A stretch of 64,000 nt of DNA, taken from positions 1-64,000 of the IMG/VR virus record IMGVR_UViG_3300049215_000481; one strand, given 5' to 3'. A program made the position numbers and the translations under genes. The notes below the pieces were generated by a model. That model had not been told where the DNA came from, did not search any database, and worked only from the letters and a program-made list of their open reading frames with translations. The stretch is from a virus. This document shows positions 2,677 to 56,536 of the stretch, one piece after another (positions within the stretch are counted from its first letter, which is position 1; every line of letters begins with the position of its first letter).

Positions 2677-3348
2677 CTACTCGATCTCCTTGACAGGCGC
2701 CGGTGCGGCCTCCAGCACCCGCTTCATGTCTTCCAGCTTCTCGAACCCCAGGCGCTCGACCGTCGACTGTACCGAAGCAGCCATCTCGGCGTTGAACGCG
2801 GTCACGACCTTCTCAGCCGCCTCCCCGAACATCCGGATCATGAACGGCGCGTTGGCCTCCACGTCCTGCAGCGCCTTGCCGACGATCCAGTCGATCTTCT
2901 CCTTGTCGTCCTTCGACAAGGTCTTCTTGGCCAGCAGCACGCGCAGCTTCTTCTGCGCCTCGCGGAGGCGCTCGGCTGTCTCGGCGGTCTGCTGCTTGAA
3001 CGCGTCAACAACGCGCTCGTGCTCCACAGGCTCGTCCTCGGGCGGCGACTCGATCCGCGGCTGACCCCGGACGAAGTTGATGGTGCACGGCACGCCCCCG
3101 CCGATGTTGGGCGATGTGATGAGATCGGCGTACTGGGCCGGCGACAGCGAGACCTCGATCAGCTCGTCCTCGGCGTGGTGCCAGTCGCTGCCCAGGTCGT
3201 GCTTGAACGACGCAGTCGAGATGGTGATGCGCATCGCGTGCGTGTGGTCCTTCAGCGGGCTGCCGTGCAGCCGGCCGATGTGACCACCCGTCCGGTGGAT
3301 GACGATGTTGCCGTACGAGGGGTGTCGCTTCGCTTCTTCGTCCCTCAT
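2677..3348 (-). CDS. Conserved phage protein of unknown function (223 aa)
   Basis: Start at the ATG at 3348 behind GGAGTAGGAAC; the longer frame to 3528 reads the upstream gene out of frame. The N-terminal half (HPSYGNIVIHR, SLSPAQYADLITSPN, GGGVPCTI) is a recognisable, widespread phage family. The C-terminal half is a helical, probably coiled-coil segment. Molecular role unknown. tRNA-Ala follows within 10 bases of its stop. Confidence 0.8.
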   Translation of the reverse strand: MRDEEAKRHPSYGNIVIHRTGGHIGRLHGSPLKDHTHAMRITISTASFKHDLGSDWHHAEDELIEVSLSPAQYADLITSPNIGGGVPCTINFVRGQPRIESPPEDEPVEHERVVDAFKQQTAETAERLREAQKKLRVLLAKKTLSKDDKEKIDWIVGKALQDVEANAPFMIRMFGEAAEKVVTAFNAEMAASVQSTVERLGFEKLEDMKRVLEAAPAPVKEIE

Positions 3349-3352
3349 GTTC

Positions 3353-3565
3353 CTACTCCCAGGCTCCAACGGCCTTGAGGTTTTGGGTTTCTTTGTCGAA
3401 GAACAGGACGGACGAGAACCCGATGTACCCGCGGTTCGGTCCGCCGCTCTGGTTGTCGGAGTAGTCCGACTCGATGTTGAGTGCCACCTCGTTGGCACTC
3501 TCGGCCTCCGTAAAGACCACCCTCGCACGCGTCAACATCGCCTTCATCGTCTCCAGGTCGCTCAT
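3353..3565 (-). CDS. Small conserved phage protein (70 aa)
   Basis: ATG at 3565 preceded by GGAGGAG. It ends in a strand pattern (GYIGFSSVLFFDKE, then VGAWE) that I associate with a common phage family of unknown role. The stop of the upstream gene abuts the start. Confidence 0.7.
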   Translation of the reverse strand: MSDLETMKAMLTRARVVFTEAESANEVALNIESDYSDNQSGGPNRGYIGFSSVLFFDKETQNLKAVGAWE

Positions 3566-14297: not shown

Positions 14298-14305
14298 GGA
14301 GCGCA

Positions 14306-14314
14306 GATAGCGAA
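14306..14314 (-). promoter_or_regulatory. CGCTAT element
   Basis: TTCGCTATC, 8 bases before the ATG at 14297. Confidence 0.55.
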
Positions 14315-14319
14315 TCGGC

Positions 14320-17172: not shown

Positions 17173-17298
17173 ATGCAGCTCAAGACCGTCGTCACGAAGA
17201 CCAGCACCGAGAACTCCTCGGCCGATCTCGAACCCCGCGGGTACGCCATCGTCGCCGCGGGCCAGGGCAGGCGCGGATTCGCTATCGGCTCTACATGA
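17173..17298 (+). CDS. Small unknown protein (41 aa)
   Basis: ATG at 17173 with a good CGGAGG site. The last codons coincide with the next TTCGCTATC element and its TGA overlaps the next ATG. No homology recognised. Confidence 0.45.
   Translation: MQLKTVVTKTSTENSSADLEPRGYAIVAAGQGRRGFAIGST
17278..17286 (+). promoter_or_regulatory. CGCTAT element inside the 3' end of the 41-aa frame
   Basis: TTCGCTATC, 8 bases before the ATG at 17295. Confidence 0.55.
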
Positions 17299-17732
17299 AC
17301 AAGCTCTCCTGGTTCCCATTCAGTCAGCGCCTCATCGAGTTCGCCCCGAGCCCCCAGGCGGAGGCCGGCGTCCGCGGCAGCGTCACGATCTACGGCGACA
17401 CGTACGAGGCTGTGGCCTACAGCGAGAACGACGCCGTGATCGCCGAGGCCATCTTCACTAACCTCGACGAGGCGAAGAGCTTCGTCGAGAAGCTCGTCAA
17501 CGGCTCCGCCGGCACCCCGCGCCCGACCTTCCCACCCAAGAAGGGTGACGTGTGGGCGTGGGACGGGACGTTCCGAGACACGGAGACGCGCGACGCGCCC
17601 GAGCTGGTCACGTTCACCGGCACCGTCGACATGCACGGCCACTTCGAGTGCACGCACCCGGGCCTCGTCTCGGGGACCTGGGCGAAGGAAGCCTTCTTCG
17701 ACGGGCGCCTCATCCCCGTCCGCTGCGGCTGA
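17295..17732 (+). CDS. Unknown protein (145 aa)
   Basis: ATG at 17295 is 8 bases after TTCGCTATC with no Shine-Dalgarno, so likely leaderless. The C-terminal half (GDVWAWDGTFRDTETRDAPE, then GHFECTHPGLVSGTW) is strand-rich. Function unknown. The TGA stop is itself part of the next element (TGATTCGCTATC). Confidence 0.7.
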   Translation: MNKLSWFPFSQRLIEFAPSPQAEAGVRGSVTIYGDTYEAVAYSENDAVIAEAIFTNLDEAKSFVEKLVNGSAGTPRPTFPPKKGDVWAWDGTFRDTETRDAPELVTFTGTVDMHGHFECTHPGLVSGTWAKEAFFDGRLIPVRCG

Positions 17733-17741
17733 TTCGCTATC
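17733..17741 (+). promoter_or_regulatory. CGCTAT element
   Basis: TTCGCTATC directly after the preceding TGA, 21 bases before the ATG at 17763, with CGGAGG between. Confidence 0.55.
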
Positions 17742-17762
17742 AGCCCTCCGGAGGTCACGAAC

Positions 17763-18215
17763 ATGAACCAGATCCAGAACGCCACCGTCCGCGCCCGCAA
17801 GCTCGGGAAGCTCATCCGCAACGAGGTCGCCGCCGGCAACTTCAAGGTCGACTCCGGCTACCTGGCAGAGTCGTCCCTCACCCGGAAGTGCTACGGCTGC
17901 GCGCTCGCCGCAGCAGCCTACGCGCTGGGGACTCGGCCGAAGCCTGAGGACTCCTACCTCGGCCGCGAAGAGCTTCTCGACACGGTCAGCGCGTGCCCGA
18001 CCGTCAAGATCTCGCGCCGAGAGGCCGCGCAGTTGGAGATGGGCTTCGAGCAGTGGGGCTCCGTCTACACCTGGAGCGAACCCAACGAGACTGGGAACCA
18101 CATGCTCGTGAAGAGCGACACGAGGAACCCGTTCTACCGCCTGGGTGCGCGCCTCCGCGTGGAGCGCGACAAGGCCCGCGCGGCGGCGGCTCGGACTCGG
18201 GCTCGTCGGTCCTGA
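17763..18215 (+). CDS. Unknown protein with a distant DUF6197-like look (150 aa)
   Basis: ATG at 17763, CGGAGG upstream. KCYGCALAAAAYALG recalls the Cys/Ala-rich core of the two clearer DUF6197-like proteins downstream. The C-terminus is Arg/Ala-rich. Confidence 0.65.
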   Translation: MNQIQNATVRARKLGKLIRNEVAAGNFKVDSGYLAESSLTRKCYGCALAAAAYALGTRPKPEDSYLGREELLDTVSACPTVKISRREAAQLEMGFEQWGSVYTWSEPNETGNHMLVKSDTRNPFYRLGARLRVERDKARAAAARTRARRS

Positions 18216-18224
18216 TTCGCTATC
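18216..18224 (+). promoter_or_regulatory. CGCTAT element
   Basis: TTCGCTATC overlapping the preceding TGA stop, 19 bases before the ATG at 18244, with AGGAGG between. Confidence 0.55.
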
Positions 18225-18243
18225 AGCTCTTCAGGAGGACACG

Positions 18244-18619: not shown

Positions 18620-18816
18620 ATGAAATTTTTGTCGGGGGGAGCCGGAAGCGCTGCAGCCGGCTCTGCGTCACGTGGGGTGAAGGCCGCTGGGCGTTCCACC
18701 TCTTCGTCGATCGCGAGTACTAGGCCTGGGGGCACGTCGTAGAGAACGGCGACGTGCCCGAGTACACGCTCGACATCTGGGGTCTCGGCCCTCTCTTCCA
18801 GGTCATCAGGGCCTGA
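18620..18816 (+). pseudogene. Decayed small gene with an in-frame TAG
   Basis: One frame reads LCVTWGEGRWAFHLFVDREY, then TAG at 18721-18723, then AWGHVVENGDVPEYTLDIWG and GLGPLFQVIRA to a TGA at 18814. Codon use is gene-like on both sides of the TAG. The only nearby ATG (18620) is in another frame, so both an indel and a nonsense change are needed. Amber suppression is an alternative reading. Confidence 0.5.
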
Positions 18817-18825
18817 TTCGCTATC
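18817..18825 (+). promoter_or_regulatory. CGCTAT element
   Basis: TTCGCTATC, 8 bases before the ATG at 18834. Confidence 0.6.
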
Positions 18826-18833
18826 AGCCCACC

Positions 18834-20156: not shown

Positions 20157-20809
20157 AGACCATCTACCTCGCCAACCCGTACGGCTTCTCGCCGACCCAG
20201 CGGGCCGCGCTCCTCCCGCCCATCATCGGCGCGCTGGAGAAGATGGGCTTCGAGGTGTGGGAGCCCTTCTCTCGCTGCTCGTCCGCCGACTTCACGCGGC
20301 CCGAGTGGGTTCGCGAGGTTGGCCAGCAGTGCCTCAGCGACGTGCGGAACGCGGACGCCATCTTCGCCATTGTGAACGGCTGTCCGCCCGACGAGGGCGT
20401 GATGTTCGAGCTGGGCTACGCCGTCGCGCTCGGGAAGCCCTTCTTCCTCTTCCGGGACGACTTCCGGAAGTGCACCGACAGCAACGAGCTGCCTCTCAAC
20501 CTCATGGCGTTCGTCGGCCTGCAGAACCACGAGGACTGGCGAGCGCGGTACTTCACCTCGCTCAACGACCTCAACGACAAGCGGAAGCAGCTCTACGCCT
20601 TCGCGCCCCGACAGAGGCCCGAGCCGGCCGCCGGCCAGTGGTGGCGATTCCCGGGCGAGCGCCCGTACCGGCTCACGCGCAGGTACCACGACGACCTCGA
20701 CTGGTGCTGCGAGCACGAGCCGGGCGCCGACGACGGCCTGATGTACGACTCCGACTTCCAGGACCCGCGCGTCATCTACTGCGGCGACGGCGAAACGCCC
20801 AGCGAGTGA
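20153..20809 (+). CDS. Nucleoside 2-deoxyribosyltransferase-like protein (218 aa)
   Basis: GTG start at 20153 coupled to the lipoprotein stop. Residues 4-95 carry the family signature: IYLANPYGF, ADAIFAIVNG, and DEGVMFELGYAVALGKPFF with the expected catalytic glutamate near residue 86. Family members cleave or exchange the N-glycosidic bond of deoxynucleosides or their monophosphates. The C-terminal ~100 residues are unassigned. It lies among other nucleotide/ADP-ribose genes. Confidence 0.85.
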   Translation: MKTIYLANPYGFSPTQRAALLPPIIGALEKMGFEVWEPFSRCSSADFTRPEWVREVGQQCLSDVRNADAIFAIVNGCPPDEGVMFELGYAVALGKPFFLFRDDFRKCTDSNELPLNLMAFVGLQNHEDWRARYFTSLNDLNDKRKQLYAFAPRQRPEPAAGQWWRFPGERPYRLTRRYHDDLDWCCEHEPGADDGLMYDSDFQDPRVIYCGDGETPSE

Positions 20810-20818
20810 TTCGCTATC
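20810..20818 (+). promoter_or_regulatory. CGCTAT element
   Basis: TTCGCTATC overlapping the preceding stop, 8 bases before the ATG at 20827. Confidence 0.6.
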
Positions 20819-20826
20819 AGACCACC

Positions 20827-21207: not shown

Positions 21208-21413
21208 TGCTCGCCGTCTACGTCGTCGTGGGCTTCCTCGTGTTCGGCATCGCGGCGCTGCTGTGGATGCTCTTCATCAACTCCGTCGGCGGGGACCTGA
21301 ACATCGCGTTCGCGCCCTGGATGCTCTTCTGCGTCGTCTGCTGGGGGATCGCGTGGGTCGCGAAGCAGCCGTTCCGCGCGATTCGCTATCTGGCCTCCAG
21401 GAGTAACCGATGA
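21207..21413 (+). CDS. Small two-helix membrane protein (68 aa)
   Basis: TGATG-coupled to copy 2. Two hydrophobic helices separated by a short loop, basic C-terminus inside. The next gene's TTCGCTATC element lies within its last codons. Confidence 0.65.
   Translation: MLAVYVVVGFLVFGIAALLWMLFINSVGGDLNIAFAPWMLFCVVCWGIAWVAKQPFRAIRYLASRSNR
21382..21390 (+). promoter_or_regulatory. CGCTAT element inside the 3' end of the membrane gene
   Basis: TTCGCTATC, 19 bases before the ATG at 21410, with CAGGAG between. Confidence 0.55.
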
Positions 21414-21958: not shown

Positions 21959-22090
21959 CAGTCTTCGGTCCCAGTCGAGGCACAGGACCCGCGGGTAGCT
22001 CCCGCCTCAGGGTTCGATTCCCTCCGTGGTTTGGACAGAGCCGGTTCGAGTCCGGCACTTCGACGTTGGCGGCACGGCGCCGGGACCACT
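21959..22090 (+). other. Non-coding stretch with two tRNA T-arm-like hairpins
   Basis: Contains a perfect GCGGG/CCCGC hairpin, AGGG-TTCGATT-CCCT and GCCGG-TTCGAGT-CCGGC, both with tRNA T-loop sequences. No complete acceptor stem can be paired, so these may be tRNA remnants or tRNA-like RNA. Confidence 0.3.
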
Positions 22091-22099
22091 TTCGCTATT
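22091..22099 (+). promoter_or_regulatory. CGCTAT element
   Basis: TTCGCTATT, 8 bases before the ATG at 22108. Confidence 0.55.
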
Positions 22100-22107
22100 A
22101 GGACCAC

Positions 22108-23005: not shown

Positions 23006-23023
23006 CCGGCCCGCGTTCGCTGA

Positions 23024-23032
23024 TTCGCTATC
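23024..23032 (+). promoter_or_regulatory. CGCTAT element
   Basis: TTCGCTATC, 8 bases before the ATG at 23041. Confidence 0.6.
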
Positions 23033-23040
23033 TGCCCATC

Positions 23041-28574: not shown

Positions 28575-28581
28575 CCGGACT

Positions 28582-28590
28582 TTCGCTATC
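28582..28590 (+). promoter_or_regulatory. CGCTAT element
   Basis: TTCGCTATC, 22 bases before the ATG at 28613, with AGGAGG between. Confidence 0.55.
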
Positions 28591-28612
28591 GGTCTCTTAG
28601 GAGGTCGACAGC

Positions 28613-31456: not shown

Positions 31457-31465
31457 CGCAATCTT
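31457..31465 (+). promoter_or_regulatory. CGCAATCTT late-type element
   Basis: 6 bases after its end (8 after the CGCAATC core) is the ATG at 31472; no Shine-Dalgarno. Confidence 0.6.
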
Positions 31466-31471
31466 GAGCAC

Positions 31472-33997
31472 ATGGCGACCCAAGTGCCGGGCCCTGTGAC
31501 CCCGGGTGCGTTGTTCGATCTGGCCCGCGCGAATGAACTCGCGCCTGGGCAGGAGACGGACAAGACCTGGTACCGCGAGCCCACCATCGCGGGTGCCAAG
31601 TGGAACCAGCTCTTCCCGTACCAGCTCATCGTCGTCGATCGCCAGGCCGACGGCACGTACGTGCGGCGCCGCGAGAAGGGCTGGACCTACACACTGCCGA
31701 TGTCGCCCGAGTCGCTCTCGATCGAGATGCCGTTCGCGATCACGACGTCGGTCACGATGGGCGGCTACGTCGAGCACCACAACGGCACGCCCATCCGCAT
31801 GCTGCAGCTCTCGGGCACCTTCGGCGTGTTCTTCGGCCGCGGTGAGGCCAAGGTGCCCCCGCAGTTGACGTTCGCCGAGTCCATCCTGGGCGGCACCATC
31901 TCCGCCTTCCAGAGCACTCTGCAGGCCGCGCGAGACATCCCAAGCGCGTACACGGGCAAGGAGTACAACACCAACTCCGCCGACGCGAACTCGTTCGACT
32001 CGGGCCAGGCCAACGAGAAGGCCACCGGCTACTTCCAGGCTCGCCTGCTGCAGGCGTTCTTCGACTCCTACGCCGAGTTCAAGAAGACGAAGGCCGGGCG
32101 CAACTCGCGCCTGGCATTCGCCATCTGGAAGCAGGAGGCCGTCTACCTCGTGCAGCCCATCGACTACCGGGCCACGCAGTCGGCTGACAGTCCGCTGGAG
32201 TACCGCTACTCGCTCACCCTGAAGGCGACCAAGCGCGTGAAGCTCACCCAGGGCGCGATGGACATCGCCGTCCCGTACGTGCCCGTGCAGCGCGACCCGG
32301 GCAAGCTGGCCAAGCTCCTCGCGACGGTCACGCAGGCTCGGCAGGTCCTCCAGAACGCCCGCAAGACGATCATCGCCATCGGCGGCGACGTCGAGCACTC
32401 GCTATTCGAGCCGATGCGCGAGCTGTCCATGTTCGCCAAGGACGCGCTGGCGGTCCCGCTCTCGATCGCGGACCTCGGCGACAGCCTCGTCCAGTCGACG
32501 CGCACCGCAGTGATGGACCTGGCCCAGACTCGCAACGACATCACCCACTTCCCGCAGAACATCCGCGGCGCCTACGGGTCGTACACGAAGGACCTCAAGG
32601 ACTCGTACGAGTCCATCCGCCAGTTCAACGCAGAGCGGAGTGACGACGACGGCAGGGACGACCCGACCCGCAGTGCGGACGCGGCGACGAGCAGCCGCAA
32701 CGCTCACCCGGCCAACAACCCGTTCCTGAACCCGTCTGACAACTTCTCGTTCTTCTCGACCATCAGCGTGGGTGACCTGCACCTGCCTCCCGCGACGATG
32801 ACGAAGATCGCGGCTGAGCGCGAGCGGGTCCGCAACCTGACCAGGGCCGACTTCGAGGCGCGCCGCAACGCCATCAGCGCCGTCACGGCGAACTTCGCCA
32901 ACGCCATCGGCCTCGGCTCCTCGACGTACAACGCCACGTACAACATCACGGCGCCGACCAACCAGGCTGTCACGCGCGCAACCGACGAGGACTTCGAGGC
33001 GCTCTTCGCGCTCAACGCCCTCATCATGGAGATGAACCGCCTCGTGGTCACGACTGACCGCGAGCCGCGCGCCCTCATCGACGCCATCGCGTCCGTCGCC
33101 GGCATGGCCTCTCGCTCGGGCATCGCCTTCCAGATGCCGCGCTCGAAGTACGCCGTGCCCTTCCCGTACGGCAGCACGCTGGAGATGCTCTCCACCCTGT
33201 ACCTGGGCACCCCGGACCGCTGGCACGAGATCGCGGCCCTCAACGGGCTTCAGGCTCCTTACGTCGACGAGCAGGGCTTCGAGCTGCCGCTGCTGACCAC
33301 CGGCGCCGGCAACACGCTCCTCGTCGAGGACGCGTCTCAGCTCTTCGTCGGTCAGCCCGTGTGGGTCGAGTCGATCGGGAAGCTCCGCAGTAAGCGCCGC
33401 GTGACGAAGATCGACCACCTGTCGGCCGACCAACACCTCATCACGGTCGACGGCCCCGCCGACCTCGACGGCTACTCGCCGCAGTCGTTGGCGAAGCTGA
33501 TCGCGTTCCTCCCGAACACGGTCAACTCCCAGATGCTCATCTACATCCCGAGCAGCATCGAGCCGAAGGACGGCGACTTCCAGACGAAGTCCATCCCGGG
33601 CGTCGACGAGTTCGACCGTCTCATCGCAGTGGGCGGCGTGGACCTCCTGCTCGACCAGAAGAACGACCTCATCATCACTCCGGACGGCGACGCGCGCTGG
33701 GCGGTCGGCCTCACGAACATCATCCAGAAGGTGCGCCTCGCACTCTCAGTGCGCCAGGGGACGCTCAACCGTCACCCGGAGTACGGCCTTCCGCTCGTCG
33801 TGGGCCAGAGTATCGCCGACACGGACGCGGTCGACATCGCGAAGGCGGTGCAGAGCATGGTCGCCGGTGACCCGACCTTCACCGGCGTGAGGGGCGCGAC
33901 GGTCAACATCACAGGTCCGGTGGCGCGTCTCGCGTTCGGCGTCGAGGTGTCCGGCGTCTCACAAGTCATCCCGGTGTCCATCGACGTGAAGCAGTAG
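31472..33997 (+). CDS. Baseplate protein with LysM-like and gp25-like regions (841 aa)
   Basis: The N-terminal ~270 residues resemble phage baseplate hub/wedge proteins (WTYTLPMSPESLSIEMPFAI, GGYVEHHNGTPIRMLQLSGT). A helical middle follows, then a LysM-like segment near 564-603 (YGSTLEMLSTLYLGTPDRWH) and a C-terminal gp25/W-like domain from ~745 (VRLALSVRQGTLNRHPEYGL). Such fusions occur in contractile-tailed phages. Leaderless-type start after CGCAATCTT. It precedes the baseplate-J-like gene, interrupted by an HNH gene. Confidence 0.8.
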   Translation: MATQVPGPVTPGALFDLARANELAPGQETDKTWYREPTIAGAKWNQLFPYQLIVVDRQADGTYVRRREKGWTYTLPMSPESLSIEMPFAITTSVTMGGYVEHHNGTPIRMLQLSGTFGVFFGRGEAKVPPQLTFAESILGGTISAFQSTLQAARDIPSAYTGKEYNTNSADANSFDSGQANEKATGYFQARLLQAFFDSYAEFKKTKAGRNSRLAFAIWKQEAVYLVQPIDYRATQSADSPLEYRYSLTLKATKRVKLTQGAMDIAVPYVPVQRDPGKLAKLLATVTQARQVLQNARKTIIAIGGDVEHSLFEPMRELSMFAKDALAVPLSIADLGDSLVQSTRTAVMDLAQTRNDITHFPQNIRGAYGSYTKDLKDSYESIRQFNAERSDDDGRDDPTRSADAATSSRNAHPANNPFLNPSDNFSFFSTISVGDLHLPPATMTKIAAERERVRNLTRADFEARRNAISAVTANFANAIGLGSSTYNATYNITAPTNQAVTRATDEDFEALFALNALIMEMNRLVVTTDREPRALIDAIASVAGMASRSGIAFQMPRSKYAVPFPYGSTLEMLSTLYLGTPDRWHEIAALNGLQAPYVDEQGFELPLLTTGAGNTLLVEDASQLFVGQPVWVESIGKLRSKRRVTKIDHLSADQHLITVDGPADLDGYSPQSLAKLIAFLPNTVNSQMLIYIPSSIEPKDGDFQTKSIPGVDEFDRLIAVGGVDLLLDQKNDLIITPDGDARWAVGLTNIIQKVRLALSVRQGTLNRHPEYGLPLVVGQSIADTDAVDIAKAVQSMVAGDPTFTGVRGATVNITGPVARLAFGVEVSGVSQVIPVSIDVKQ

Positions 33998-34037
33998 TAG
34001 AGCTTCTAAGACCCCCGCGGAATCACATTCTTCGCGT

Positions 34038-34046
34038 CACAATCTT
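34038..34046 (+). promoter_or_regulatory. Late-type element before the HNH gene
   Basis: CACAATCTT; the GTG at 34053 is 8 bases after the core. Confidence 0.5.
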
Positions 34047-34052
34047 TATCGT

Positions 34053-34652
34053 GTGCCGCCTAGTAAGTTCGGTTGGAAGTTCAAGGATCTGTCTGGCCAG
34101 CAGTTCGGCCGCCTAACAGTCCTCGCAGAGTGCGGAAGAGACGCTCACGGCAATGTGCGCTGGAAGTGTCACTGCTCGTGCGGCGAGATCAAGGTCATCT
34201 CAGGCGCCAGCCTGAGGCGCGGTCTGACCCGCTCTTGTGGTTGTTTCATCGGAGACTCGCATCGTGAGCGTGCCCAGCTCAAGCACGAAGAGAGCGGAGG
34301 CAGGACTGGGGCGTTCAGACTGCTCGTAAATCAGTACAGGTCTGACGCACGAGATCGCGGACACGCCTGGGAGCTTTCCGACGATCTGGTCGCATCCCTT
34401 ACCTCGGGATGTTGTCGATACTGCGGGAAACCGCCGTCGCAGACTATCAAGTCGCGCAAGCGTCTCTACATCTACAACGGCATCGATCGGGTAGACAACC
34501 GCGTTGGTTACGTACCTGGGAACGTGGTTCCGTGTTGTGGACCATGCAACCGAATGAAGCGAGACATGAGCGCGGACGAGTTCTTCTCGCTGGTATCCGC
34601 CATCTACGAGCATTCGGCCCGGCCGCAATCTTTGGCCATGAACCATGGCTGA
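34053..34652 (+). CDS. HNH homing endonuclease with N-terminal zinc module (199 aa)
   Basis: GTG start at 34053, leaderless-type. Residues 10-70 are the LSGQQFGRLTVLAEC, WKCHCSCGEI, RRGLTRSCGC zinc module. Residues ~120-170 hold the HNH core (CRYCGK, YNGIDRVDNRVGY, CCGPCNRMK). Less GC-rich than its neighbours, consistent with recent insertion between two baseplate genes. Its last codons contain the CGCAATCTT element of the downstream gene. Confidence 0.85.
   Translation: MPPSKFGWKFKDLSGQQFGRLTVLAECGRDAHGNVRWKCHCSCGEIKVISGASLRRGLTRSCGCFIGDSHRERAQLKHEESGGRTGAFRLLVNQYRSDARDRGHAWELSDDLVASLTSGCCRYCGKPPSQTIKSRKRLYIYNGIDRVDNRVGYVPGNVVPCCGPCNRMKRDMSADEFFSLVSAIYEHSARPQSLAMNHG
34624..34632 (+). promoter_or_regulatory. 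CGCAATCTT late-type element inside the HNH 3' end
   Basis: 5 bases before an ATG at 34638 (a 4-codon frame) and 12 before the baseplate-J ATG at 34645. Confidence 0.5.
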
Positions 34653-37600
34653 CACTCCTACGCCGCGCAGTTACCAGCAGGCCCTCGGTGACCTGATCGA
34701 CGCCTTTCTATCGAGGCAGGGACTGAAAAAGCTGCGGGTCGGATCTCCGCTGCTTTCCATCATGGAGGCTGCAGCCCAGAGCGACATGCGTTCGAGCCAG
34801 GACACCTTCGGGCTCCTGAACGCCGTCTCGCTCGACAAGGCCACCGGCCTCGCGCTGGAGCGCATCGGCAACGACGAGAACGTGCCGAAGTACCAGCAGA
34901 GCGCGACGACCGGCACCGTCGACATCTCGGACGCGTCATTCACGAAGAGGGCGACGAAGCTCTTCCAGGGCTCCCCTGCCCCCATCGCGGGCTCGATGAC
35001 CATCGACGTCGTCGACGCCGGCCTGTGGCCCAGCAGCGGCCAGCTCTACATCGGCCGCGGCACGCCCAACTACGAAGGGCCCATCTCGTACACCTCGAAG
35101 GTGAACGCCGGCACGCACTACACCATCACGCTCGCGGCTGGCACGGCCCGGTTCCACAACACGTCCGAGTCCGTGATCCTCGCCCAGGGCGGCAACCGTC
35201 AGATCGGCCAGGGCGTCATCGTCAAGACGCCGCAGGCGAACACGTCGGACGCCGTCGAGTTCACGATCGTCACGCAGCGGACCATCCCCGACGGCGAGAC
35301 CCTCGTCTCGGGCGTCGAGGTCCGCGCGCTGAAGCCCGGCAACATCGGCAACGTCCCGGCGGGCGCCATCAAGGAGTGGTCGGCTGAGCCGTTCGCGGGC
35401 GCGACGGTCACGAACCCCGGCCCCTTCAGCAACGGCCGCGAGACGGAGACGGACGACGACTACCGCGAGCGCATCAAGAACGTGCGGCGCTCTCGCGCGC
35501 TCGGCACGTCGCTCGCCATCACCAACGCAGTCGACGGCATCACGGCCCCAGACGAGAACAAGCGCGTCAGCTCCGCATCGCTCGTGCCGCGGCTGAACCT
35601 CGCCTCCACGCTCTACATCGACGACGGCACCGGCTACGAAGAGAAGCAGGCTGGCGTCGCCATCGAGACCCTGGCGGACTCGGCGGTCGGCGGCGAGCTG
35701 TACTTCGAGACGAAGCAGCGCCCGGTCGCGCGCGCCTTCGCGGTCACGCAGAACTCGGCTCCGTACACCCTGACGCCGGGCGCCCAGCTCGCGGTGAAGG
35801 TCGGCGGACGGACGTTCATGCACACCTTCAACGTGGTCGACTTCGTGTCGATCGCGAACGCGTCGGCCTACGAAGTCGTGGCGTCGATCAACGGCAACCC
35901 CACGATCGGCTTCCGCGCCCGCACGGCCGAGTCGGGCACCAAGGTCGCCCTGTTCGCTGACGTCGACGCGAACGAGGACGTCGAGGTCGTCGCGGCTGCG
36001 TTCAACGACTCGAACCCGGCTCTCGGCTTCCCGCCGGGCATCAACTACACGATGCAGCTCTACCGCAACGACCGCCTCCTGACCAAGGACGGCGTGATCG
36101 CGGCGTTCGTCGGCGAGAACGTCTCGCAGTGGGACTCGGTGAGCGGCTCGCAGACCCTGGTGGTCGCGGTCGACAACACCCCCGCGCAGACGTACGCGTT
36201 CGTCGACCAGGACTTCGTGGACGCCCGCACGGGCTACTCGACGGTCGCGCGCAACACGATTGCCGCATGGTGTGCGGTGATTGAGGCCAAGATTCCCGGC
36301 ATCACGGCGACCGAGGACGCGGGCCGCATCGTGCTCACCTCCACCGCTGGTCCGGCGGCGAAGGCTGCTGTCGAGGTCCTCGGCGGTACCCTGGTCAGCC
36401 ACAAGTTCTTCAGTACGGGCAAGGTCGTGGGCAAGGCTCGCGACTACACGCTCGACCGCAACAACGCGCAGATCCGTCTGGAGCAGCCGCTGCTGGCCGG
36501 CGACAAGCTCACGATCGGCTCACAGTACACCCGCGCGTTCATCGAGTCGGACGTCATCCCTCCGACCTCGATCGGCGGCGTGGCCCGTTTCTGGTTCGTG
36601 ATCGACGGCGACGCCGAGGTGGTGCCCACGGGCGTCACGGGCGGCACGACTCTCGCCATCGCCCCCACGGCGGCCCACCCGAGCGGCAACGTCGTCACGC
36701 TGACGGCGAGCGCCGGCACCCCGTTCGTGAACGCCCGAGCGGGCGACTGGCTCATTACCTGGGACCCGGCCCTCGACGCCTCCATCCAGGGTGCCTTCCG
36801 CATCGCGGAGGCTGCGCCCACCTACCTGCGCATCGAGCGCCGAGCCGGCACCGCCGTCCGCGTCGGTCACCGCGCCGCCGCCCTCCAGGCGTCCGGCGCC
36901 TCCATGTGCAAGGTCCTGATCTGCGGCGGCAGCTACCGCGTCAGCGACATCTACGGCGTCAACTACGGCACGCCCACGGCTGAGCTGTACGACCCGAACA
37001 CGAAGACGTCGACGCCCGTGGCGCCGATGAACTTCGCGCGCACGTTCCACTCGGCGACGCTGGTCCCGAGCGGCAAGGTGGTCGTGGCGGGCGGCTTCGA
37101 CGGCAACGGCAAGCCGGTCAAGGCCATCGAGATCTTCGACCCGGTCGCGGGCACGTGGACCCTCTCGGCGGTCCAGCTCACCACCGGCGTCGGTCACCAC
37201 ACGGCAACCTTGATGGCCGACGGCCGCATCGTGTTCGCTGGCGGCAACGCCGGCACCGGCGGCGCGGTCGACGCGCTCCAGGTGTACGACCCGGTCGCCG
37301 ACACCATCACGGTCGCAGCTCACCTCGTGCACCCGCGTGCGAAGCACAAGGCGGTGCTGATGCCGAACAACGACATCCTGATCGCGGGCGGTTACGACGC
37401 GAGCTTCACGGACCAGGCGACGGTCGAGGTGTTCTCGCACACGACCCTGCTGACGACGGCCGGCATCCACAACATGAACCGCGCGCGCTCGGGCTTCGGC
37501 CTCGCCGTGGTCGGCACGTCGCCCACCAAGGTGATGGCGGTCGGCAACAGGAAGGGCGCGGCTGGCAACAACACCTACGAGCTGTACGACATCGCGGCCA

Positions 37601-40600
37601 CCACGTGGGGCGCCGAGACGCCTTTCCCGGCGGGCGGCCAGACGTTCGAAGAGAACGACGCCATCACCCTGACGAACGGTCACGTCGTCGGCGTGCACGG
37701 CTACGACGGCGGCGTCTGCGTCGGCTTCACGTACAACGGCACGACGTTCACCGAGACCTTCCCGGACCCGACGCTCGACGTGAACGTCAAGTGGGCCGGT
37801 CAGTACGTCGAGATCAAGAACGGCAGCGGGACCATCAAGAACATCGTGGGCGCGTTCGGCGGCGCCTGCGAGCTGTCGCCCGGCTGGGGCTTCCTGCCCA
37901 CGGCGAGCATCGAGCAGTACGACGAGGTCGGCGCGACGTGGACGGTTCCCGACCCGGCGACGACCACGGGCGTCACGCTCGCGAACCAGGGTCTCGCCAT
38001 CGTCCGCACGAGCGGCATCGTGCGCGAGGTCGACCTGCCCATCGGCACCAACTACACCGCGTCCACGGTCGCGGCGGCACTGAACACGGGCCTGGTCGGC
38101 GCGGTCGCGTCCGTCTACAAGACGAACCAGCTCCGCATCTCGACTGCCACGTTCGCGAAGGGCGGCGACATCGCCCTCGTCGCCCAGAACCAGCTCGCAC
38201 CGAGCTTCCAGCTCGACACGGGCTCGGCGGTCTCGAACCTGACGGGCCACATGGCAGCCATCGAGTCGGGCAACAGCGACCTCGGCACCCCGTCCTTCGA
38301 CGAAACGCGCATCTTCGGCACGACCAAGACGGGCGCGAACGCGGAGTCGGTCCTCGTCGGCACCGGCAACACGTACGTCAACTACGGCCTGGTCGGCCTG
38401 AAGAGCTGGTGGGGCGGCGCCGACGGCGACAGCTCCTTCGACGGCGCGGCGTACTTCTACCCGCGCGAGGGCAACAACTTCGGTTTCCGGACGCGCCTGA
38501 AGACGGCGCAGTCCTACGGTACTGCCGCGAGGCTGGACGTTCGAACCAGCAGCATCGAGCCATGGTCCCCGCTGGATCGCGCCTACCTCGCGGCTCCTTT
38601 TGCCATCGGTCCGAACGACGACCTCACGGTCCTCGTCGACAACGACACGAACAAGCGCTTCACCGTCAAGATGTGGCGGAAGCTGCAGACGGTCGGTGGG
38701 ACGTACGCGGCGACGAACACCTTCCGCGACGCGGACGGTGGCGGCGCATCGCTCGCGGCGACGTTCGGCCTCGGCTACAGCTTCAACGACTTCGCGGTCT
38801 ACATGAAGGCGCGCGCTGTGGCCTACTCGGACCCGACACAGCAGATGCTGTTCCGCTACTTCCGCTTCGGTGCGGAGGGTGAGGCGGCCCGCGTCCGCAT
38901 CGGCAACCCGCTGGGTCCGACGGCCCAGGTGTCGGTCGGCGTCGACCTCGTCAGCGACGAGAACAACGAGAACATCACGATCCGCCTGGCCTCCGGCGCA
39001 CTCCGTTCGCCGACGCTTAACAGCACCACCCAGGTCGGGCAGGCGTGCTACGGACACTCGGCCGGCGACGTGGCGAAGTTCGTCTACGTCCTCAACCTCC
39101 CCATCTCCTCGGCCTCGCGCACGACGAACGTCGACACGCTCACGCTGACCCTGCCGCCGTCCATCACGGACCACGGCCTGAACGTCAACGACGTCGTGTG
39201 GGTGAACTCGACGAACATCAACTTCGCCTCGGGCCTGAAGACGATCACGGCGCGCACGTCGACGACCATCTCCTACGCTGAGACGGCGGCCGACCAGGGC
39301 GCGACGGCCAACATCGGCACGGTGTCTAAAGACGCGGCGGCCGAGGCAACGTTCAACGGGTCCTCGACGGTGGCTGGCGACTTCCTCCGCATCAACGACC
39401 CGGGCGTTCTGGGCGGCAACGCGACGATGCGCATCGCCGCGGTGACGAACAGCTACGCCCAGACGACCTCGGGCGACCAGATCGACGGGCACGGCGTCGC
39501 CAGCGGCACCACGCTCTCGTGGACGCCTCTCGTCTCGGCGTCTGCCTTCCAGGTGTTCTCGAACCCCGCCCAGACCGCCACGCAGGTAGCCGCGAAGGTG
39601 AACTCGCTGGCGAGCGGCTCGACGTCGAAGTGCCCGATCACGGTCACGCTGCTCGGCAGCGGCGCTGGCACGATCGACCGTTCGACGCCCGACTTCCTGG
39701 ACGACAACGTCGCGTGGTACCAGCTCGCGGACGGCATCAACTGGGTCCAGACGACGACGTCACCGGGCTCGAACGTCGGTGACTACACCCTGCTCTTCAA
39801 GCGTCCCACGACCGGCTCGCTCGCCACGGGTGCCGACTGGGCGAACGAGGAGGTCCGCATCGCTCCCTCGACGACCGCCAACGTCGTCGCGTGGCTCAAC
39901 ACGCCCACGGTGACGGGTCTCTTCACGGTCTGCTCCATCCAGGCGTCGCAGGACGGTGAGAAGGTCCAGATCAGCTCGAAGACCCCGGGCTCGGTCGGCG
40001 CAGTGCAGGTTCAGGGCGGCTCGGCCAACGCCGCGACGACCGTGGTGGTGGGCAGCCCCGTCTCGGTCGGCAACAAGACCGTCTCGACGGTGGCGCGCGC
40101 CTTCTTCGACAGCTTCACCGGCGGGTCGTGGTGCCGCATCGACAACGAGAACACCGTGCCTCGCGCCCTGCTCTTCGGTACGGGCGTGACCCTACTCTCC
40201 CTGAGCGCTGACGGCACGGCCGTGTTCGACACGAGCGTCGCCAACCTCACCTACAGCCCCACGCAGTTGAAGGTCCAGGTCGAGAAGACGGGCAACTACG
40301 TCGCCATCTCCGACATGGGCATGAACGGCCTGGTCTTCTGGAACAGCGTGGAGCCGGGCAGCGTCGTGCGCCTCAGCCCGTCCACGGCACCGACGGCCAA
40401 CATGCCGCAGATGTCGAGCGCCAACCAAGGCCTGTTCCGCGTCCTGCGGGTCGGCCAGTCGTTCGTCGGCTCGGGCGGCACGCTGTACATCGAGAACCCC
40501 AACGCGATCCCCGAGCGCTCGGAGTGCACCCTCACGATCTTCTCCCCGGACTCGGTGATGCCGGGCGACAAGTTCGTGGTCGCCACCTCCGTGATGGGCG

Positions 40601-41382
40601 TGGAGAACCAGGGCGTGTGGACTGTTCGCTCGGTCGGCGACACGGACGGCTCGTCGGGCGACCCGTTCGCTCACACGGACCGCTTCATCCTCGACACCAC
40701 GGAGCGCACGCCGCTCCCGCAGACGAACATCGCCTTCTCGAACGACACGACGCTGGGTCTCGTCCGCGTGGTCGAGGGCACTCCCGCGAGCTTCCTGATG
40801 AAGCTGGAGGCGGTGGCCCCCAACCAGGACGACGGGGCGTACCTCGACATCCGCTGGGACAGGGACATCGCCAGCTCGACGATCGCCGGCTCTGCTGGGT
40901 CGGTCGTGACCGCGCTCGACAAGCTCGACTTCCCGCTGGACTTCATCTCGGGCATCGACGGCTACAGCTACAACACCGGTCTGATCGGTGAGGCGAACCG
41001 GGTGGTCTACGGCGACCCGTCCGACACGGCGACCTACCCGGGCGTCGCGGCGGCGAGCGCGCGGATCAACATCTCGGGCCCGCTCGTGAAGCGCATCACC
41101 CTGGCCCTGGCTCTGCGCGTCCGCTCGGGCGTCAGCAACCAGGACATCGCCGACCGGGTGCGCTCGGCCGTGGCGACCGTCATCAACCAGACGGGCATCG
41201 GCCAGCCGATCGCGCTCTCGACGGTCGTCGCTGCGGCGGCGAAGGTCGTCGGCGTGATCTCGGTGTCGGTCCTCTCGCCCACCTACAGCGTGGGCAACGA
41301 CCTCATTGCGGTGCAGCCGTTCGAGAAGCCGCTGGTCCTGAACCTGAACAGCGACATCCAGATCTCGTTCGCCGGAGAGTAG
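34645..41382 (+). CDS. Giant baseplate J-like protein with internal Kelch propeller (2245 aa)
   Basis: Residues ~30-290 are a gp47/baseplate-J N-terminal region, including the signature NPGPFSNGRETETDDDYRER near 258-277. The matching C-terminal J domain is at ~2130-2235 (LAVQPF-type ending, ALALRVRSGVSNQDIADRVR). Between them lie ~1,850 inserted residues. At ~752-1090 there are Kelch repeats (KVLICGGS, AELYDPNTKT, RTFHSATLVPSGKVVVAGG, HHTATLMADGRIVFAGG), then LamG-like and repeated strand-rich modules. Likely a baseplate wedge that also carries host-surface-binding domains. Confidence 0.85.
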   Translation: MADTPTPRSYQQALGDLIDAFLSRQGLKKLRVGSPLLSIMEAAAQSDMRSSQDTFGLLNAVSLDKATGLALERIGNDENVPKYQQSATTGTVDISDASFTKRATKLFQGSPAPIAGSMTIDVVDAGLWPSSGQLYIGRGTPNYEGPISYTSKVNAGTHYTITLAAGTARFHNTSESVILAQGGNRQIGQGVIVKTPQANTSDAVEFTIVTQRTIPDGETLVSGVEVRALKPGNIGNVPAGAIKEWSAEPFAGATVTNPGPFSNGRETETDDDYRERIKNVRRSRALGTSLAITNAVDGITAPDENKRVSSASLVPRLNLASTLYIDDGTGYEEKQAGVAIETLADSAVGGELYFETKQRPVARAFAVTQNSAPYTLTPGAQLAVKVGGRTFMHTFNVVDFVSIANASAYEVVASINGNPTIGFRARTAESGTKVALFADVDANEDVEVVAAAFNDSNPALGFPPGINYTMQLYRNDRLLTKDGVIAAFVGENVSQWDSVSGSQTLVVAVDNTPAQTYAFVDQDFVDARTGYSTVARNTIAAWCAVIEAKIPGITATEDAGRIVLTSTAGPAAKAAVEVLGGTLVSHKFFSTGKVVGKARDYTLDRNNAQIRLEQPLLAGDKLTIGSQYTRAFIESDVIPPTSIGGVARFWFVIDGDAEVVPTGVTGGTTLAIAPTAAHPSGNVVTLTASAGTPFVNARAGDWLITWDPALDASIQGAFRIAEAAPTYLRIERRAGTAVRVGHRAAALQASGASMCKVLICGGSYRVSDIYGVNYGTPTAELYDPNTKTSTPVAPMNFARTFHSATLVPSGKVVVAGGFDGNGKPVKAIEIFDPVAGTWTLSAVQLTTGVGHHTATLMADGRIVFAGGNAGTGGAVDALQVYDPVADTITVAAHLVHPRAKHKAVLMPNNDILIAGGYDASFTDQATVEVFSHTTLLTTAGIHNMNRARSGFGLAVVGTSPTKVMAVGNRKGAAGNNTYELYDIAATTWGAETPFPAGGQTFEENDAITLTNGHVVGVHGYDGGVCVGFTYNGTTFTETFPDPTLDVNVKWAGQYVEIKNGSGTIKNIVGAFGGACELSPGWGFLPTASIEQYDEVGATWTVPDPATTTGVTLANQGLAIVRTSGIVREVDLPIGTNYTASTVAAALNTGLVGAVASVYKTNQLRISTATFAKGGDIALVAQNQLAPSFQLDTGSAVSNLTGHMAAIESGNSDLGTPSFDETRIFGTTKTGANAESVLVGTGNTYVNYGLVGLKSWWGGADGDSSFDGAAYFYPREGNNFGFRTRLKTAQSYGTAARLDVRTSSIEPWSPLDRAYLAAPFAIGPNDDLTVLVDNDTNKRFTVKMWRKLQTVGGTYAATNTFRDADGGGASLAATFGLGYSFNDFAVYMKARAVAYSDPTQQMLFRYFRFGAEGEAARVRIGNPLGPTAQVSVGVDLVSDENNENITIRLASGALRSPTLNSTTQVGQACYGHSAGDVAKFVYVLNLPISSASRTTNVDTLTLTLPPSITDHGLNVNDVVWVNSTNINFASGLKTITARTSTTISYAETAADQGATANIGTVSKDAAAEATFNGSSTVAGDFLRINDPGVLGGNATMRIAAVTNSYAQTTSGDQIDGHGVASGTTLSWTPLVSASAFQVFSNPAQTATQVAAKVNSLASGSTSKCPITVTLLGSGAGTIDRSTPDFLDDNVAWYQLADGINWVQTTTSPGSNVGDYTLLFKRPTTGSLATGADWANEEVRIAPSTTANVVAWLNTPTVTGLFTVCSIQASQDGEKVQISSKTPGSVGAVQVQGGSANAATTVVVGSPVSVGNKTVSTVARAFFDSFTGGSWCRIDNENTVPRALLFGTGVTLLSLSADGTAVFDTSVANLTYSPTQLKVQVEKTGNYVAISDMGMNGLVFWNSVEPGSVVRLSPSTAPTANMPQMSSANQGLFRVLRVGQSFVGSGGTLYIENPNAIPERSECTLTIFSPDSVMPGDKFVVATSVMGVENQGVWTVRSVGDTDGSSGDPFAHTDRFILDTTERTPLPQTNIAFSNDTTLGLVRVVEGTPASFLMKLEAVAPNQDDGAYLDIRWDRDIASSTIAGSAGSVVTALDKLDFPLDFISGIDGYSYNTGLIGEANRVVYGDPSDTATYPGVAAASARINISGPLVKRITLALALRVRSGVSNQDIADRVRSAVATVINQTGIGQPIALSTVVAAAAKVVGVISVSVLSPTYSVGNDLIAVQPFEKPLVLNLNSDIQISFAGE

Positions 41383-46303: not shown

Positions 46304-46312
46304 AGCAATCTT
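46304..46312 (+). promoter_or_regulatory. AGCAATCTT late-type element
   Basis: 9 bases before the ATG at 46322; GGGGAG lies between. Confidence 0.5.
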
Positions 46313-49441: not shown

Positions 49442-49450
49442 CGCAATCTT
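49442..49450 (+). promoter_or_regulatory. CGCAATCTT late-type element
   Basis: 13 bases before the ATG at 49464. Confidence 0.55.
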
Positions 49451-49896: not shown

Positions 49897-49905
49897 CGCA
49901 ATCTT
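49897..49905 (+). promoter_or_regulatory. CGCAATCTT late-type element
   Basis: 14 bases before the ATG at 49920. Confidence 0.55.
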
Positions 49906-49919
49906 CACCTGGAAACTAG

Positions 49920-51662
49920 ATGAGCGTTCTTCGTCAAGAAAACTGGCTCGGCCAGCAGCGCGTTGACATCCCCCACCTGCGCTCCATCGAGAGTGCGGTG
50001 GCGGGCGACTTCGACCTCCTGGCCGGCACCATCCTCGCGGGCAAGGCCCCGCTGGTGGCGTCGGGCTTCTACGTCTTCACGACCGCTGTCACCAAGGCGG
50101 AGGCGCTCCAAGTCCAGGTCGGCGACGCGACGCTGATCCACTTCTACGCTTCCGAGAGCGGCTCCATCTTCCATGTGCCGGCGGACCGCGCGGCGGAGAC
50201 GCTGTCTTCGACGAACCCGCGGGTCTCGGGCTCGTTCACGCCCGGCCAGGTCAACTACGTGGGCATCGACCTCGTTCGCTCAGCGGACGACAGCACGGTC
50301 GACCTCGTGCAGTTCATCGACACGAACTCCTTGCTGGAGGACCCCAAGTCGGTCCCGCTCGCGCGCACCCTCGACTACCGCTTCGTCATCTCGACGACGG
50401 ACTTCGAGTCGAACCCGAGCGTCGCCCCCATCGCGCGCGTCACGCTCGACGCGTCGAGCGGCGTCATCGCCGTCGAGGACGCCCGCAACATCTTCTGGCG
50501 CCTGGGCACCGGCGGCAGCACGCCCAACGCGCTCTACAACTACCCGTGGCCCGGCGGACGTCGCGAAGAGTCCAGCGGCGACAAGTTCCTCGGCGGCGAC
50601 AAGGGCATCAAGAGCCTCAAGGAGTGGATGGACGCGGCGATGAGCCGCATCTGGGAGGTCGGCGGCGGCGAGCACTGGTACAGCCCCGGCGCGGACCGCA
50701 ACGTGGTCCTCGCGCGCACGGGCTCGCCGTTCGTCAGCTCGGGCGAGTACTTCGAGTGGGACGGCACCAACCTCCACTGGAAGGGCCTCGTCGTCACGTT
50801 CGCGAACTCGACCGGCATCTTCAACGAGACCATTAGCGCGACGAGCGACCAGGCGGGACTCACTGACCTCGCGGACGGCGAGTGCATCTACGTCGACATC
50901 GACAGGTCGCAGAACCGCTACGTCACGCCTCCCCTGGGCGGCGCGACCGCACTGCAGCCCCAGAAGGCACCGCTCGCCCAGCTCGGCAACCCCGCTGTCC
51001 CCGGGAGCCGCTGGGTCCTGGCGTGGCGCTACGGCTCGAACATCTACGTCCGCGACCAGTCGTACCCGGTCGGTTCGTCGTTCAAGCTCGCGACGACGGC
51101 CGCCGCTGGTGGCGTGAAGGTCTCCGCGTCCGACAGCGCCTCGGTGTCCCCGATCACCGTCGCGACAGTGGACTCGGTCAGCAAGGCTGCGTACGCCTCC
51201 GGTATCACGCGCGGCTCCGACTTCTTCGGGGGCCCCGGCGATATCCAGATTGGCGGCTTCGGCTCGTACGACCACCGCGTACTCATCAAGGCTGGACGGC
51301 CCATCGACGACGTCCGCATCGAGGGTTCGCAGAACTTCACCTCGGGCTTCAACTCGCCGTGCTCGATCGCCAACACGCTCGACTTCGTCACGACCGACCT
51401 CCAGGCGCGCACGCTCAGGCTCATCGGCTACAACGGCTCCGAGTCGCGCGAAGAGGACGCCCACCAGTTCCATTCCGGCGGCGGCATGGGCTGGCGCGCA
51501 GTCATCGACGAGCCGGCCACTCCGACGCCGACTTCGGCGCAGCCCATCTGCGCGGTGGAGTTCTACCGCCAGCTCGGGACCACGCCAAACGCCCGATACC
51601 AGAAGTGCATCAAGTGGCCCGACGGAGACATCACCGTCATCGCCGAGAGCAACACCTTCTAA
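49920..51662 (+). CDS. Tail structural protein (580 aa)
   Basis: N-terminus NWLGQQRVDIPHLRSIESAV followed by GDFD is a pattern of large-phage structural proteins. A mixed strand-rich body and a short C-terminal domain (HSGGGMGWRAVIDEPATPT) follow. Exact role unknown. Confidence 0.65.
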   Translation: MSVLRQENWLGQQRVDIPHLRSIESAVAGDFDLLAGTILAGKAPLVASGFYVFTTAVTKAEALQVQVGDATLIHFYASESGSIFHVPADRAAETLSSTNPRVSGSFTPGQVNYVGIDLVRSADDSTVDLVQFIDTNSLLEDPKSVPLARTLDYRFVISTTDFESNPSVAPIARVTLDASSGVIAVEDARNIFWRLGTGGSTPNALYNYPWPGGRREESSGDKFLGGDKGIKSLKEWMDAAMSRIWEVGGGEHWYSPGADRNVVLARTGSPFVSSGEYFEWDGTNLHWKGLVVTFANSTGIFNETISATSDQAGLTDLADGECIYVDIDRSQNRYVTPPLGGATALQPQKAPLAQLGNPAVPGSRWVLAWRYGSNIYVRDQSYPVGSSFKLATTAAAGGVKVSASDSASVSPITVATVDSVSKAAYASGITRGSDFFGGPGDIQIGGFGSYDHRVLIKAGRPIDDVRIEGSQNFTSGFNSPCSIANTLDFVTTDLQARTLRLIGYNGSESREEDAHQFHSGGGMGWRAVIDEPATPTPTSAQPICAVEFYRQLGTTPNARYQKCIKWPDGDITVIAESNTF

Positions 51663-52759: not shown

Positions 52760-52768
52760 CGCAATCTT
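52760..52768 (+). promoter_or_regulatory. CGCAATCTT late-type element
   Basis: 3 bases before the GTG at 52772; a second in-frame GTG is at 52778. Confidence 0.5.
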
Positions 52769-53434: not shown

Positions 53435-53443
53435 CGCAATCTT
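53435..53443 (+). promoter_or_regulatory. CGCAATCTT late-type element
   Basis: 15 bases before the ATG at 53459. Confidence 0.55.
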
Positions 53444-56009: not shown

Positions 56010-56017
56010 GTGAGCCT

Positions 56018-56026
56018 GATAGCGAA
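56018..56026 (-). promoter_or_regulatory. CGCTAT element
   Basis: TTCGCTATC directly after the upstream TGA, 8 bases before the ATG at 56009. Confidence 0.6.
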
Positions 56027-56536
56027 TCAGCGCCTCGTGAGCGCCTTGTGGATCTTCCGGCGGATGATGTCGCGCTTCATCGTGCCTGCGCCGTCCACGA
56101 ACACCTTGCCGTCGAGGTGCTCGATCTCGTGCTGCGCGCACTGGGCCTCGATGCCGTACATGAGGAAGCGCGAGCGCGCGCCGTACGCCTCCTGCGCGGA
56201 GATGATGACCTCTGGGTGGCGCAGGACCTTCTCCGAGTATCCGGGCACCGACAGACAGCCCTCCTCGACCAGCGCCGGCTCGTCGATCAGCTCCTCGATC
56301 TGCGGGTTGACGTACGCCCGCACGGAGCCGTTGAAGGGAGCGAGTGCGATGAAGACGCGCTTCGGCACCCCCACCTGGATGGCCGCGAGGCCGACGCCGT
56401 TGTTCACGCGCATCGTCTCGATCATGTCGGCGACGAGCTTCTTGAACTCGTCGGACGCCTGCTCCTCGAAGCTGACCGGTTCGCTGACCTGCGCGAGGAC
56501 GCGGCTCGGCCAGTACACGAGCTGAAGGACGCTCAT
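56027..56536 (-). CDS. def: Peptide deformylase (169 aa)
   Basis: All three signatures are present: GVGLAAIQVG, EGCLSVPG (metal Cys) and HEIEHLDG (metal His pair and catalytic Glu). It removes formyl groups from nascent peptides. Phage deformylases are common in large genomes. AGGAG precedes the ATG at 56536. Confidence 0.95.
   Translation of the reverse strand: MSVLQLVYWPSRVLAQVSEPVSFEEQASDEFKKLVADMIETMRVNNGVGLAAIQVGVPKRVFIALAPFNGSVRAYVNPQIEELIDEPALVEEGCLSVPGYSEKVLRHPEVIISAQEAYGARSRFLMYGIEAQCAQHEIEHLDGKVFVDGAGTMKRDIIRRKIHKALTRR

Follow-up and report, generated by a model that had tools for sequence, protein, structure and literature searches.

The window analyzed here, the first 64,000 bases of the 169,280-base virus record IMGVR_UViG_3300049215_000481 from IMG/VR (65.3% GC), contains a baseplate assembly gene at 31472 and an open reading frame (ORF) at 34053, each with its start codon 8 bases beyond a short conserved element. 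Similarly spaced elements of a different sequence precede early genes, and the question raised by this locus is whether all of these are versions of one promoter or belong to two. A first-pass annotation had proposed a single core, CGC(A/T)ATC, shared by an early and a late class, which one polymerase or sigma factor could read, with stage-specific partners recognizing the flanking bases. Judged from sequence, the elements are instead real promoters of two separate classes, with predicted start sites. It is likely that the two are distinct −10-only sigma-type promoters, the late class being read by a sigma factor that the phage encodes, and the early class most likely by host RNA polymerase with a host sigma factor.

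Genome-wide counts below refer to the whole record. Coordinates are those of the window unless marked G000, which denotes the whole record. Genes were called with a simple script; RNA start sites and timing were read from sequence, the start sites from start codons alone. The record belongs to a large phage with a contractile tail, and its closest annotated relative is Myxococcus phage Mx1 (OR576727; 169,621 bases, 55.5% GC), with identities of 38% for the baseplate protein at 31472, 58% for the major capsid protein, 49% for the portal and 43% for the large terminase. A search of a phage collection found no DNA-level relative of the record.

Motif classes and their distance to start codons

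The early class is described by [GC]ATTCGCTATnnG, with 58 sites against 0.4 expected (iterated matrix on the whole record, Markov simulations). Its consensus is A(-20)-[GC](-19)-ATTCGC-TAT-n-n-G(-7), followed by a pyrimidine run and a purine; the information content is 24 bits with the initiator region included, G occupies −7 in 87% of sites, and GATTCGCTAT occurs 31 times where 0.02 copies are expected. Early elements precede the genes for DNA polymerase III alpha, SSB, a recombination endonuclease, GroEL and the helicase upstream of sigma, as well as many small genes on both strands. The late class is RCAATCTT. CAATCTT occurs at 38 sites (3.9 expected), and CGCAATCTT has 23 copies (0.45 expected). 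The late matrix, whose strong part is CAATCTT, scores 55 matches at the chosen threshold where 12.5 are expected, and its weakest matches are thus partly due to chance. C at −15 and G at −14 are merely preferred, since sites with AGCAATC, AACAATC, CTCAATC and CACAATC exist. Late elements precede the genes for baseplate, baseplate J, head protease and other plus-strand products, and the plus strand carries 35 of the 42 CAATCT[TA] matches. Neither class has a conserved block or conserved bases in the −35 region.

By comparison, the proposed core is a weak signal: bare CGCWATC occurs 26 times in the window against 15.1 expected, a count reached by 1 of 100 shuffles, and the enrichment is weak because several of the matches are chance. 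The real signals are longer and fall into two classes genome-wide. CGCAATC is present before the baseplate gene, at 31457-31463, with the ATG exactly 8 bases on. Before 34053, the site is CACAATC at 34038-34044 rather than CGCWATC, and the "CA" that had been placed ahead of the late core is a register slip. The other flanks hold, namely TT before the early core (49 of 66 CGCTAT sites genome-wide) and TT after the late core. The last C of the proposed core varies in early sites (position 6: C 41%, T 26%, A 21%) and so falls outside the early element.

Evidence for two classes comes from the linkage between the central base and its flanks. In this genome, TT-CGC-T occurs at 49 sites, 23 of them with a start codon at the base 8 positions on (+8), and CGC-A-AT-CTT at 23 sites, 7 with a start at +8, whereas CGCAAT lacking CTT has a start there in 0 of 20. 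The two possible hybrids, CGCTATCTT and TTCGCAAT, occur at 0 sites and at 1 site, the latter with no start at +8. Hence, the central base is fully linked to its flanks, and there are no functional hybrids. Across 69 sources (2.08 Mb), starts at +8 follow CAATCTT 36 times (plus 18 at +9) and TAATCTT 15 times, against 0 for CTATCTT, 3 for CATTCTT, 1 for CAATCTA, 0 for CAATCTC and 1 for CAATCCT. The lack of a +8 peak for CTATCTT indicates that T is not tolerated at the center of the late element. A single shared core was rejected on these grounds, and the letters common to the two classes, CG C W A T, mark, on this evidence, corresponding positions in two −10 elements that share a register.

The claim of a common 8-base spacing was borne out. 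Counting open frames, a start codon lies at +8 after the early 7-mer in 23 of 49 cases (0.81 expected, P=4e-28) and after late CAATCTT in 11 of 38 (0.63 expected, P=2e-11). Offsets 0-7 hold no start codon at early sites, against 6.5 expected. Early sites that lack a start codon at +8 often have a Shine-Dalgarno sequence (AGGAGG, GGAGGT) whose first base occupies that very position, and a switch from pyrimidine to purine occurs at the predicted +1 at these sites too. These observations suggest that the fixed point is best read as the RNA start. With the +8 base taken as +1, the part of the core that varies falls at −12 to −7, the place of the sigma −10 element, and the spacing fits such an element with leaderless mRNAs. 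The spacing would then be common to both classes because transcripts often open with the start codon itself or have their 5′ end just upstream of a Shine-Dalgarno sequence or a brief leader.

The phage sigma factor and the reading of each class

The only recognizable sigma gene of the record lies at G000 93590-94798 and encodes about 350 amino acids; the true start is probably 93719, which matches the start of the Mx1 protein, to which the product is 45% identical. The Pfam Sigma70_r2 profile matches it with E=5.8e-5 and 20.6 bits, under the curated cut-off of 24 bits, while PHROG 351 (sigma) matches with E=1e-6 and sigma-70 family profiles from PDB with values down to 3e-6. The predicted structure (mean predicted local distance difference test score 85) resembles sigma factors over regions 1.2 to 3, and one of the matches is sigma domain 2 solved in complex with −10 DNA (3ugo_A, Z 11.9, root-mean-square deviation (rmsd) 3.3 over 150 residues). 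Fold-search rows that cover the whole model have an rmsd near 10 and carry little information on the C-terminus. The protein thus has sigma-70 region 2, which binds core polymerase and the −10 element. In all relatives, the C-terminus ends shortly after a region-4.1-like helix, past an LRLKG motif, leaving no room for the helix-turn-helix that reads a −35 element. The Sigma70_r4 profile has no match in the record, and region 4.2 was not found. Other single-element phage sigmas likewise lack region 4 (PMC8948821). By sequence and predicted fold, the phage protein is a truncated relative of sigma-70 rather than a full member. Such a sigma, lacking region 4.2, would need no −35 element, matching its absence here. 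A separate region-4 gene after sigma was also considered; inspected by eye, with no profile run on them, the candidate ORFs (L002 10895-11188; Mx1 3075-3539) do not resemble region 4. In an alignment with sigma-70 made by eye, the phage sigma appears to lack the tryptophan pair that reads T at −12, which would fit the A at −12 of the late element.

Additional evidence came from the distribution of the two elements among relatives. A relative of the phage sigma was found in 61 IMG/VR contigs. Sigma relatives also occur in metagenome-assembled genome bins labeled Deltaproteobacteria, Saprospiraceae and Saccharibacteria; these are probably binned phage contigs, and the bin labels hence assign no host. 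In 40 of 40 recovered IMG/VR orthologues of the gene after terL (37-69% GC), a YAATCT(T/A) element lies upstream. The consensus of these sites is A-18 R-17 C-16 n R-14 C-13 AATCTT; in one row the script took a later in-gene match, and an upstream copy exists there too. CAATCTT with a start codon at +8 is present in every one of 16 genomes, with 48 matches where the reversed pattern gives 3. Six genomes were examined over their full length, and each of them has +8 as the commonest offset after AATCTT, alone or tied. In Mx1, the orthologue of the baseplate gene at 31472 is preceded by CACAATCTTATCGGC-ATG at 121405, a late element with the +8 spacing, as are Mx1 genes 75289 and 36563. A literature search for CAATCTT in phages found nothing relevant. 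Early TTCGCTAT, by comparison, is enriched only in this record, L011 and L020. The helicase promoter reads GATTCGC-TATA in L011, GATCCGC-TATACT in L021, TTTCGC-TACATG in L028 and TGC-TATAAT in L029, and it is TGATATA-like in AT-rich relatives; early genes of Mx1 appear, by eye, to have GGATCT-n-CTAGTAT upstream. A de novo search for early motifs in five relatives returned only Shine-Dalgarno sequences or coding bias, so early drift was judged from orthologous helicase promoters, a few near-relative sites and the upstream regions of Mx1 read by eye. Taken together, the late element is kept across the phage family, while the early element differs between lineages.

These data lead to a model in which late promoters would have the form R-14 C-13 A-12 A-11 T-10 C-9 T-8 T-7, with the RNA start 7 bases further; their reader would be host core RNA polymerase in complex with the phage sigma (regions 1.2 to 3). 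Early promoters would have the form A-18 T T C G C T-12 A-11 T-10 n n G-7, a pyrimidine run and a purine at +1, and would be recognized as extended −10 promoters, the most likely reader being host polymerase together with a host sigma. The helicase gene immediately ahead of the sigma gene is driven by an early promoter at G000 91908. With the sigma gene behind an early promoter, early transcription would have to come first, most likely by the host holoenzyme; it would produce the sigma, which would then open the late genes. In both classes, many RNAs may be leaderless, beginning with the start codon; others may begin immediately upstream of a Shine-Dalgarno sequence or of a short leader.

Several observations weigh against this model. 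The link between the phage sigma and the late element, although most likely, is one of co-conservation, promoter anatomy and precedent, and a different conserved factor could be the one that reads the element. The G at −7 of early promoters is unlike TAnnnT, and the element is unusually uniform for a host promoter, both of which weaken the assignment to the host holoenzyme. Moreover, the major capsid (G000 109921) and tail sheath (G000 133512) genes have no recognized late element within 70 bases. The operons of these two genes look late despite having no such element close by.

The best-surviving alternative, which we regard as possible but unlikely, keeps the phage sigma as the late reader and gives the early elements to a second phage factor, such as a cryptic sigma, an activator of host polymerase or a protein carried in the virion. 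The uniformity of the early element, the lack of a −35 element, the G at −7 and the restriction to this lineage and its near relatives are what such a factor would explain. On the other hand, the profiles tried matched no second sigma and no multisubunit polymerase, and in the same register some relatives have host-like −10 hexamers, in GATCCGC-TATACT (L021) and TGC-TATAAT (L029). The sole multisubunit profile tried was that of Rpb1 domain 2 (PF00623), which could miss divergent subunits of the phiKZ type; a profile for T7-type single-subunit polymerases was uninformative, since it also found nothing in any control genome.

The reading put forward in the first-pass annotation, in which one polymerase or sigma recognizes CGCWATC in both classes and stage-specific partners recognize the flanks, is improbable. 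It is consistent with the equal distance from element to predicted start, with the letters shared at −15 to −13, −11 and −10 in this genome, and with the finding of just one sigma-like gene by profile search. While one polymerase core fits the shared geometry, a single sigma with an interchangeable A/T does not fit the absence of flank hybrids, the 0 of 20 starts for CGCAAT lacking CTT or the missing CTATCTT peak across relatives. In addition, the C at −15 of the late element is not conserved in relatives (C 13, A 11, G 9 and T 2 of 35), and one element drifts while the other is conserved. Start positions that differed between the classes had been named as grounds for giving up the single core. 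The predicted positions do not differ, a result that cannot separate one sigma from two; equal distances would follow from the use of −10-type promoters in both classes by a single polymerase core, that of the host. Lastly, a role for the elements in translation or as operators, and not as promoters, is very improbable: the distance to start codons is fixed in many cases, but Shine-Dalgarno sequences often take the +8 position at early sites that have no start codon there, and late leaders range from 0 to 40 bases, yet start codons closer than +8 are not enriched.

The promoter map and its neighboring genes

Under the preferred reading, with host sigma on early and phage sigma on late promoters, the elements and genes of the window are as follows, beginning with the late class.

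31457..31465, plus: late CGCAATCTT; predicted RNA start at the A of ATG 31472; in the Mx1 orthologue, CACAATCTT stands at the same +8 spacing
31472..33997, plus: baseplate assembly gene, predicted to be leaderless from the late promoter (PHROG 975, E=1e-15; 38% to Mx1)
34038..34046, plus: late CACAATCTT, not CGCWATC; GTG 34053 at +8
34053..34652, plus: ORF of 199 amino acids downstream of the 34038 promoter, unmatched in Pfam
34624..34632, plus: late CGCAATCTT; ATG 34645 at +14; the Mx1 orthologue, 130008, has CAATCTT upstream
34645..41382, plus: baseplate J-like protein with kelch repeats, 2245 amino acids
41396..41404, plus: late CACAATCTT; start ATG 41428
46304..46312, plus: late AGCAATCTT, C at −15 absent
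49442..49450, plus: late CGCAATCTT
49897..49905, plus: late CGCAATCTT, before the gene at 49920, which is 42% identical to Mx1 139197
52760..52768, plus: late CGCAATCTT
53435..53443, plus: late CGCAATCTT
14304..14315, minus: early ATTCGCTATCTG; ATG at +8
17277..17288, plus: early ATTCGCTATCGG; ATG 17295 at +8
17732..17743, plus: early ATTCGCTATCAG; GGAGGT from the exact predicted +1, ATG at +21
18215..18226, plus: early ATTCGCTATCAG; AGGAGG from the predicted +1, ATG at +19
18816..18827, plus: early ATTCGCTATCAG; ATG 18834 at +8
20809..20820, plus: early ATTCGCTATCAG; ATG 20827 at +8
21381..21392, plus: early ATTCGCTATCTG; AGGAG at the predicted +1, ATG 21410
22090..22101, plus: early TTTCGCTATTAG; ATG 22108 at +8
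23023..23034, plus: early ATTCGCTATCTG; ATG 23041 at +8
28581..28592, plus: early TTTCGCTATCGG; AGGAGG at the predicted +1, ATG 28613
56016..56027, minus: early ATTCGCTATCAG; ATG at +8

The ORF at 34053-34652 contains cysteines, lies between two baseplate genes and looks, by eye only, like a small mobile protein of the HNH type. Kelch repeats lie inside the 34645-41382 protein, and in Mx1 a separate kelch gene comes after baseplate J. Outside the window, a predicted head maturation protease (G000 103539-107504, L003) has a C-terminal GGDEF domain, diguanylate cyclase-like (Pfam E=1e-14), and Mx1 has a separate "nucleotide cyclase" gene just downstream of its protease gene. For the Mx1 head protease itself (OR576727, 13002-13025), the late element and the +8 rule suggest a start at 13023, compared with the annotated 13002. 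DNA polymerase III alpha is split in the record (G000 70876-73128 and 73294-75864, L001), the parts being 44% and 51% identical to a single Mx1 protein.

An early and a late element lie within 120 bases of each other at six places, three of them on the same strand. Upstream of the SSB gene, at G000 70172-70179, the two overlap (ATTCGCTATACGCAATCTTT), a possible early/late switch in 7 bases. At G000 126434/126445 and 103503/103524, early and late cores on opposite strands are 11 and 21 bases apart, so that an early and a late polymerase could be mutually exclusive there.

Known systems and the meaning of the two classes

The arrangement suggested here, with host sigma acting early and a phage sigma late, is that of phage phiEco32 and, in outline, that of T4. 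In phiEco32, the sigma phi32_gp36 lacks region 4 and uses a single element, tAATGTAtA, with no −35 and a start 6-8 bases downstream, while early promoters are read by host sigma70 (PMC8948821). The present phage likewise has a sigma without region 4 and a single −10-type element with no −35, its predicted starts lying within the same 6-8 bases; it differs in the element itself (RCAATCTT), in phage type and in the prominence of leaderless starts. T4 gp55 recognizes TATAAATA at −13 to −6 of late promoters, in a system that requires the sliding clamp gp45 and gp33 (PMC1524935). The likeness is that of a phage sigma, here assigned from sequence, on a short −10-only late element conserved across relatives. 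The T4 element was not found, however, the late consensus being RCAATCTT, and the sigma of about 350 amino acids had no gp55 match in any search run. AR9 and phiKZ also have two classes, each with a distinct short consensus and a fixed start distance, and some genes with both (PMC5312081). Those phages have their own multisubunit RNA polymerases (PMC5312081), whereas PF00623, the sole multisubunit profile tried and one that could miss divergent subunits, found none here. Mx1 resembles the record in genome size, in its homologous sigma, terminase, portal, capsid and baseplate proteins and in the late element and its spacing, and differs in its 55% GC and its early element (GGATCT-n-CTAGTAT as read by eye). 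The Mx1 genome announcement contains no promoter analysis (PMC10720576).

More broadly, it is somewhat more probable than its opposite that these phages, ranging from 34 to 69% GC, carry a new family of region-4-less sigmas with a near-unchanged late element, YAATCTT at −13 to −7, early promoters that diverge by lineage, and leaderless translation of structural genes. If so, early and late transcription units could be mapped from sequence alone for a widespread and almost unstudied phage group, of which one cultured member, Mx1, was found. An orphan phage sigma would gain a target, and leaderless late mRNAs would correct several annotated gene starts. The late code would stay fixed in this group while the host-dependent early promoters change.

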